The notes under the pieces: model-generated
What the model was told of the DNA's origin: nothing
The model's database searches: none
Seen by the model: only the letters and a program-made list of their open reading frames with translations
In this document: one piece after another, positions 62,429 to 64,000 of the stretch
Layout: each line of letters begins with the position of its first letter
Position numbering within the stretch: the first letter of the stretch is position 1
Assembly: GCA_024682395.1 (NCBI GenBank)
Contig: JAIKZH010000020.1
Coordinates: 62,001-126,000, forward strand
DNA from: Bacteroidaceae bacterium
GTDB lineage: Bacteria; Bacteroidota; Bacteroidia; Bacteroidales; Bacteroidaceae
Direction of reading: 5' to 3'
DNA: 64,000 nucleotides
Translations under genes and position numbers: made by a program

Positions 62429-63472
62429 ATGGCAAAAATGAATTTTGGCGGTGTCATTGAAGAAGTTATGACACGCGAAGAGTTTCCTTTAGAGAAAGCT
62501 CGTGAAGTATTGAAAGATGAAACAATCGCAGTTATTGGCTATGGAGTTCAAGGTCCTGGTCAGGCATGTAACCTTCGCGATAATGGTTTCAATGTAATCG
62601 TTGGTCAACGTCAAGGTAAGACATACGAAAAGGCTAAGGCTGACGGTTGGGTTCCAGGTGAGACTCTCTTCTCTATTGAAGAAGCTGCAGAGAAAGGTAC
62701 AATCGTTATGTGTCTTCTTTCTGATGCTGCAGTTATTTCTGTATGGCCAACTTTGAAGAAATATCTTACTCCAGGTAAGGCATTGTATTTCTCACATGGT
62801 TTTGCAATTACATGGAACGATCGCACAGGATGTGTTCCTGCTAAGGATATTGACGTAATCATGGTTGCACCAAAGGGTTCTGGTACATCTCTCCGTACTA
62901 TGTTCCTTGAAGGTCGTGGTTTGAACTCATCATATGCTGTTTATCAGGATGCTACAGGTAAGGCTCTTCAGCGTACACTTGCTCTCGGTATCGGTATTGG
63001 TTCAGGATATATGTTTGAAACAACATTCATCCGTGAAGCAACATCTGACTTAACAGGTGAACGTGGTTCATTGATGGGTGCTATTCAGGGATTGCTTCTT
63101 GCTCAATACGAAGTACTCCGTGAGAATGGTCACACTCCATCTGAAGCATTCAACGAAACAGTAGAAGAACTTACTCAGTCACTTATGCCTCTCTTTGCTG
63201 CAAAAGGTATGGACTGGATGTATGCTAACTGTTCAACAACAGCTCAGCGTGGTGCTCTTGACTGGATGGGCCCATTCCATGATGCAATCAAGCCAGTTGT
63301 AGAAAAATTGTATGCAAGTGTTAAGTCTGGAAACGAAGCTCAAATCAGCATCGACTCTAACAGCCAACCAGATTATCGTGTTAAACTTGAGGCAGAACTC
63401 AAGGCTCTTCACGATAGCGAAATGTGGCGTACAGCTGAAGTAGTTCGTAAACTTCGTCCTGAAAATAACTAA
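62429..63472 (+). CDS. ilvC: Ketol-acid reductoisomerase
   Basis: IlvC isomerises and reduces acetolactate with NAD(P)H. The 347-residue protein has the Rossmann motif GYGVQGPGQA (about 37-46), cofactor-selecting VGQRQGKT, the APKGSGTSLR region, and metal/substrate-binding ETTFIREATSDLTGERGSL-type segment (about 193-211). It is the last gene of the operon and is followed 22 nt later by a strong terminator. Confidence 0.97.
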   Translation: MAKMNFGGVIEEVMTREEFPLEKAREVLKDETIAVIGYGVQGPGQACNLRDNGFNVIVGQRQGKTYEKAKADGWVPGETLFSIEEAAEKGTIVMCLLSDAAVISVWPTLKKYLTPGKALYFSHGFAITWNDRTGCVPAKDIDVIMVAPKGSGTSLRTMFLEGRGLNSSYAVYQDATGKALQRTLALGIGIGSGYMFETTFIREATSDLTGERGSLMGAIQGLLLAQYEVLRENGHTPSEAFNETVEELTQSLMPLFAAKGMDWMYANCSTTAQRGALDWMGPFHDAIKPVVEKLYASVKSGNEAQISIDSNSQPDYRVKLEAELKALHDSEMWRTAEVVRKLRPENN

Positions 63473-63494: not shown

Positions 63495-63528
63495 ACGATG
63501 AGGATATGTCTTAACATGTCCTCATCGT
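63495..63528 (+). terminator. Terminator of the ilv operon
   Basis: ACGATGAGGATATGT pairs with ACATGTCCTCATCGT (one G-U) around a 4-nt loop and is followed by TGTTTTTA. Confidence 0.9.
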
Positions 63529-63619: not shown

Positions 63620-63649
63620 TTTGCACATATATATATATATATATCTTTG
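63620..63649 (+). promoter_or_regulatory. Promoter with an (AT)9 repeat in its spacer
   Basis: TTTG at 63620-63623 and TATCTTTG at 63642-63649 are separated by 18 bp, of which most is an uninterrupted AT repeat. The repeat runs into the -7 element. One extra AT unit would give the 20-bp spacing seen in the best promoters of this window. Confidence 0.65.
63627..63644. repeat. (AT)9 dinucleotide repeat
   Basis: Nine uninterrupted AT units lie inside the promoter spacer and first bases of the -7 box. It is the longest dinucleotide repeat noticed in the window. Confidence 0.95.
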
Positions 63650-64000
63650 TGGCGGTTCTGTGTGCGGAATCAATCATAAGTCTTTCTTTATAAGGAAAAA
63701 ATCTCCTTTTAGTCAGACAATCAGACATTTTGATAATACCTAATAGCCTATGCCTAATGGTTTTATTATTGTCTTTACAGTTATTTTTACCAGAAATACA
63801 ATATATACCTATTTAGTTATGAAAACAAAACAAATCACTAAAAATAATAATTAAAAAGAATATAGACCTTGATCAAATCTATATCAATCATCAACTGCAG
63901 ATAAGATGATTGCTGACCTTACAGTGTAAAGGAGCGGAATCCGAAAAGCTTTATCGAGTAGGAATAACAATTATTGAAAGACGTCTTTTTACTAAAAATC

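Follow-up and report, generated by a model that had tools for sequence, protein, structure and literature searches.

Does the (AT)9 microsatellite in the spacer of the promoter at positions 63620 to 63649 act as a slippage-prone switch of transcription, and which genes would it control? The repeat lies in the window, the 64,000-nucleotide stretch of a Bacteroidaceae draft genome analyzed here, and a sequence-only reading had proposed it as a candidate for phase variation. The promoter anatomy is directly legible. The -33 element TTTG (63620 to 63623, forward strand), which aligns with the -33 elements of 20 homologous promoters, is separated by CAC (63624 to 63626) from the (AT)9 array at 63627 to 63644 on the same strand, and CTTTG follows immediately at 63645 to 63649. 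The array fills the spacer and its last part forms the TAT of the -7 element TATCTTTG (63642 to 63649, forward strand), which remains intact whatever the repeat number. Because the repeat itself supplies this TAT, gain or loss of an AT unit would preserve both motifs and alter only the distance between them. The TTTG, the 18-bp spacer, the nine AT units, and the perfect -7 motif described earlier proved exact, and TRF returned the same array with 9.0 copies and a 100% match. Transcription is expected to start near 63655 to 63658.

Pattern searches, on which all genome repeat censuses reported here are based, found two sites of (AT)8 or longer in the 2.6-Mb draft genome, of which the array at 63627 to 63644 is the longer one. 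Of 151 family genomes, only 2 contained the promoter shape TTTG/(AT)7 or more/TTTG. Both motifs of the Bacteroidales TTTG/TAnnTTTG promoter are perfect at this locus, and the spacer is 1 to 2 bp shorter than the genome optimum: exact TTTG-N-TAnnTTTG sites showed a genome-wide spacer peak at 19 to 20 bp (53 of 100 among the matches listed), and 18-bp spacers accounted for 11 of 100 of these listed matches. Sites within the window carrying both exact motifs had spacers of 20, 20, 16, 19, 20, and 16 bp, in addition to the 18 bp considered here. Since 18 bp is below the optimum of 19 to 20 bp, one added AT unit would attain it.

The upstream neighbor, outside the cassette, is a 347-amino-acid open reading frame (62429 to 63472, forward strand), which its sequence and the preceding ilv genes suggest to be ilvC, encoding ketol-acid reductoisomerase. 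A terminator-like hairpin followed by a T run (63495 to 63528, forward strand; 15-nucleotide arms, 93% complementary, 4-nucleotide loop) probably ends the ilv transcription unit, and from this terminator to the next gene the sequence at 63620 to 63649 is the sole consensus promoter. The driven gene had been predicted to lie beyond position 64000, and extension downstream bore this out, revealing a gene for a 96-amino-acid NVEALA-type peptide that starts at 64010. This peptide has a signal-like N terminus and an NVEALA-type motif. It scored 22.1 bits against the PF14055 profile, whose curated cut-off is 27, and it aligns with 13 paralogs, with ENIEALS as the common motif; some of these paralogs exceed the PF14055 cut-off. 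The peptide gene is followed by two more genes, one for a six-bladed-propeller protein of PF17170 whose signal looks lipoprotein-like by eye, and one for a DUF1573 protein.

Alignment directly establishes the homology of this promoter to others. At least 21 homologous promoter-leaders from the genome under study (G000) and that of a sister species (G005), with a single genome per species, could be aligned, and pieces of the leader of the window promoter recur elsewhere in its genome. In these family promoters, a tract lies between a -33 TTTG (or TTGG or CTTG) and a -7 T[AT]nnTTT[GA], that is, inside the promoter spacer, which is the placement found in phase-variable promoters based on simple sequence repeats. 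The poly-T of the paralogs occupies the same alignment columns as (AT)9. Eleven family promoters contain pure spacer repeats, namely, T11 to T17 or, at the window locus, (AT)9. Besides the window locus, G000 has tracts of this family at C6:135993, C7:16624, C37:25350, C51:25783, C88:48575, and C47:121121.

The concentration of such tracts at these cassettes was likewise observed directly. G000 encodes 18 PF17170 proteins scoring over the cut-off. Of its 8 poly-T runs of at least 12 nucleotides, 5 lie in front of a PF17170 cassette encoded on the same strand, as do 4 of the 6 runs in G005. The corresponding enrichments (p of about 4e-6 in G000 and about 6e-5 in G005) are conservative, with just 12% of the genome counted as available. 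A T12 run on contig C4 of G000 (C4:103071), matched on C121 of G005, was considered as a promoter tract and discarded, since it sits in an FtsH-like coding region, assigned by eye, on the opposite strand.

Among 17 congeneric genomes, PF17170 genes were found in G000 and G005 only, and the 15 congeners devoid of them contained 9 poly-T runs of at least 12 nucleotides altogether. The pattern TTTGG-N-T12-N-TTTG occurred at 7 distinct sites in G000, at 5 in G005, and at 7 in the other 299 of the 301 family genomes scanned. These 7 outside sites precede other kinds of genes, and none was seen in front of an NVEALA or propeller gene. The best NVEALA loci in 26 genomes of other genera had no T run of at least 10 and no array of at least 5 AT units within 900 bp upstream; thus, there is no family-wide need of NVEALA genes for such tracts. 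From these genome comparisons, the poly-T/AT spacer trait looks specific to the two-species lineage. When the gap was allowed to vary, a scan of a genome collection with the promoter pattern produced 13 matches, all in unrelated bacteria and judged to be due to chance, and the same scan of viral contigs produced zero matches.

Poly-T spacers are not exclusive to the NVEALA/propeller cassettes, as they also precede a transglutaminase-like gene in G005 and occur at two contig ends in G000. These sites represent a second poly-T-spacer promoter family (G000:C46:32345, G000:C76:44443, and G005:C125:6420). Its G005 member is followed by a 660-amino-acid transglutaminase-like gene and an O-antigen-ligase-like gene, and both G000 copies end at contig ends and are identical in sequence. 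The possibility that these contig-end T13 promoters serve rRNA genes was dismissed, given the transglutaminase-like gene behind the G005 homolog and the lack of rRNA in an Rfam search.

Within the cassette family, a direct count links tract purity to the type of the first gene. Pure tracts were found in 11 of the 15 NVEALA-headed cassettes with their own leader promoter and in 0 of the 11 propeller-headed cassettes (Fisher p 0.0002), an association that was spotted before it was tested. Pure-tract spacers measured 17, 18, 18, 18, 19 (six promoters), and 21 bp, and all 13 interrupted spacers measured 19 or 20 bp. Lengths outside 19 to 20 bp were therefore restricted to pure spacers (5 of 11 versus 0 of 13; p 0.011). 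The promoters are paralogous and the counts not independent, so that these p-values serve as guides only. Placement of the -7 element has some freedom, many family promoters carrying TT instead of TA, and no spacer length was assigned to two promoters of propeller-headed cassettes whose -33 element is degenerate.

Length differences between paralogs and between the sister species are also directly established, all of them being differences between loci or species, with one consensus genome for each species. Three near-identical G000 promoters carry T13, T12, and T11, and their 120-nucleotide downstream flanks are free of indels. One orthologous promoter pair has T13 in G000 and T15 in G005, and two orthologous pairs with interrupted spacers have exactly 20 bp in both species. 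The window promoter region is 93% identical to its G005 counterpart, which contains an interrupted (AT)5, CTTG as the -33 element, and a spacer of 20 bp, 2 bp apart from the 18 bp in G000. This interrupted sister copy speaks against the slippage reading insofar as (AT)9 is no conserved switch, and the absence of a pure (AT)n from it implies a recent origin of the switch at the window locus, should the switch be real. The earlier proposal of a phase-variable switch thus emerges with mixed support: the presence of a single consensus promoter, its conservation in the sister species, the 2-bp spacer shift, and a promoter family of variable length are in its favor, and the pure repeat is unconserved.

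Similarity between the leaders of the two species breaks near 63787. The G005 leader leads directly into a propeller gene, whose ortholog is located 3 kb downstream in G000. As, at this locus, the NVEALA-headed cassette and the pure microsatellite are both present in G000 only, the family-wide association of the two is repeated here. Past the break, about 3 kb of G000 sequence is taken up by an additional NVEALA/propeller/DUF1573 cassette, which is missing from G005 (L009 1787-4850; L036). Reassortment of promoters and genes through conserved leaders is apparent here and also in a comparison of G005:C78 with G000:C51. At another locus, the G005:C3 copy (L186 3750-3860) of the cassette at G000:C47:121142, which has T11 and a 17-bp spacer, has apparently lost the promoter, the leader, and the N terminus of the peptide.

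Considering these sequence comparisons, slippage-tuned, phase-variable transcription of a multilocus cassette family is the best reading, and we regard it as probable. A promoter of the Bacteroidales housekeeping type would serve a cassette encoding an NVEALA peptide and a six-bladed-propeller lipoprotein, and slippage during replication would lengthen or shorten (AT)9 by 2 bp. The spacer would then measure 16 bp (off), 18 bp (weak), or 20 bp (close to optimal), and sibling cells would differ in cassette expression. At the other cassettes, pure poly-T tracts of 11 to 17 nucleotides at the equivalent position would alter the spacer in 1-bp steps, and spacing shifts around the optimum of 19 to 20 bp might tune each cassette independently. 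We infer that spacer length sets transcription, that tract lengths vary within the population, and that this variation is under selection. Besides the interrupted sister copy, the poly-T spacers of the second promoter family and the tract-free NVEALA loci of other genera weigh against this reading. The wider proposition, a lineage-specific multilocus slippage system in which about a dozen NVEALA/propeller-lipoprotein cassettes, each with a pure poly-T or AT tract as its promoter spacer, are phase-varied independently, giving a combinatorial display, appears evenly balanced to us.

The main rival to slippage switching is a structural preference, which we consider possible, if clearly less probable. 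This promoter class might favor T- or AT-rich, flexible or bent spacers for strength. Pure tracts would then be a by-product of composition and neutral slippage, with purifying selection holding the spacer at about 19 to 20 bp and no adaptive switching. Consistent with this, every family promoter has a T-rich spacer, the interrupted ones included; total spacer length stays at about 19 bp despite differences between the tracts, as GAAG plus T17 and GAAGTCTG plus T13 both amount to 19 bp; and a related T-tract promoter is found in front of another type of gene. AT-rich spacers are normal in Bacteroides promoters (PMC7366714). However, the interrupted family spacers are T-rich without containing long pure runs and still measure 19 to 20 bp, which shows that purity is unnecessary for spacing. 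A structural preference also leaves unexplained why purity follows gene type (11/15 versus 0/11) and why 5 of the 11 pure spacers miss the optimum. Moreover, conserved composition alone does not explain the replacement of T by an AT microsatellite at the window locus.

Alternatively, the switch might be brought about by recombination, either through exchange of promoters and leaders among cassettes or through promoter inversion, with the repeat being incidental. The G005 promoter heading the propeller gene instead, with the break at about 63787, the 97% identity of an 88-bp leader segment to that of another cassette, and the combination of one cassette's promoter with another's genes in G005:C78 are in line with such exchange. 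Exchange between species is slow, though, and compatible with slippage rather than a replacement for it, and the inverted-repeat pair that an invertible element would need does not flank the promoter, making recombination an improbable substitute. In the search for flanking inverted repeats, only terminator hairpins, inter-terminator pairing, and the AT palindrome were found, and an invertible promoter was rejected. Least likely of all is that the microsatellite arose neutrally or by chance at a single AT-rich promoter, with no tie to the poly-T family: the pure repeat is indeed absent from the sister species and is the only AT case in G000, but a first-order model of the window predicts just 0.0007 (AT)9 sites per genome, the array lies in the aligned spacer columns of the family, and pure tracts are common on its NVEALA-headed cassettes.

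Slippage within promoters has precedents in other bacteria. In Haemophilus influenzae, a TA repeat in the promoter spacer of hifA/hifB drives phase variation of fimbriae. As at the window locus, a dinucleotide repeat is located in the spacer and spacing changes in 2-bp steps, but the fimbrial promoters are divergent and overlapping, with -10/-35 elements, whereas here a single TTTG/TAnnTTTG promoter precedes a peptide-lipoprotein cassette. The Helicobacter pylori surface protein gene sabA possesses a promoter-region poly-T tract of 13 to 19 nucleotides, which varies in length within a strain (PMC2715451) and whose range overlaps that of T11 to T17 found here. Unlike the cassettes described here, sabA belongs to another phylum and promoter type and has a coding CT repeat as well; the present family comprises many loci and an AT variant and is known from a single genome per species.

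In Bacteroides, invertible promoters are the phase-variation mechanism usually reported for surface loci (PMC11868660). They share with the cassette family the association with surface genes, the bacterial order, and the many loci per genome, but in their case inverted repeats mediate site-specific inversion, and no such flanking repeats were found here. The accessible part of the description of the Bacteroides sigma-ABfr promoter (PMC7366714) makes no mention of repeat-tract spacers, and searches of open-licence papers yielded no description of promoters switched by repeats in Bacteroidales. If true, the promoter-slippage family would represent a second, inversion-free mechanism of phase variation in Bacteroidales, attached to a poorly understood cassette for a secreted peptide and a lipoprotein, and reference genomes of such species would record one arbitrary expression state. 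The slippage reading predicts that tract length correlates with expression.

The 5' leader of about 355 nucleotides in total (63650 to 64000 in the window and on to 64009, forward strand) is homologous to those of other cassettes. The 88-bp segment (63880 to 63967, forward strand) recurs before other NVEALA genes, with 97% identity on C74 and 80 to 82% on C7 and C51. It includes a full-length match to a DUF805b-like RNA motif (RF02914; 63931 to 63964, forward strand), scoring 33.7 bits against a gathering threshold of 35.6. A structured leader RNA was rejected, as fold stability did not exceed that of shuffled sequences (z -0.73), and an Rfam scan of eight cassette loci yielded no family over threshold. 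Similar DUF805b-like motifs, most of them under the Rfam threshold, are present in several NVEALA leaders and at a few other sites in the same genome (C74:5091, C7:16304, C51:25453, C26:22412, C88:22222, and C85:88935). Alignment of the G000 and G005 cassette leaders also revealed a conserved block, CAATCAAACAAGTCTTTATGG ... TTCTTTACCATAAGTCTTACC, matched by no Rfam family at threshold, in which CTTTATGG could pair with CCATAAG (e.g., L121 1880-1960).
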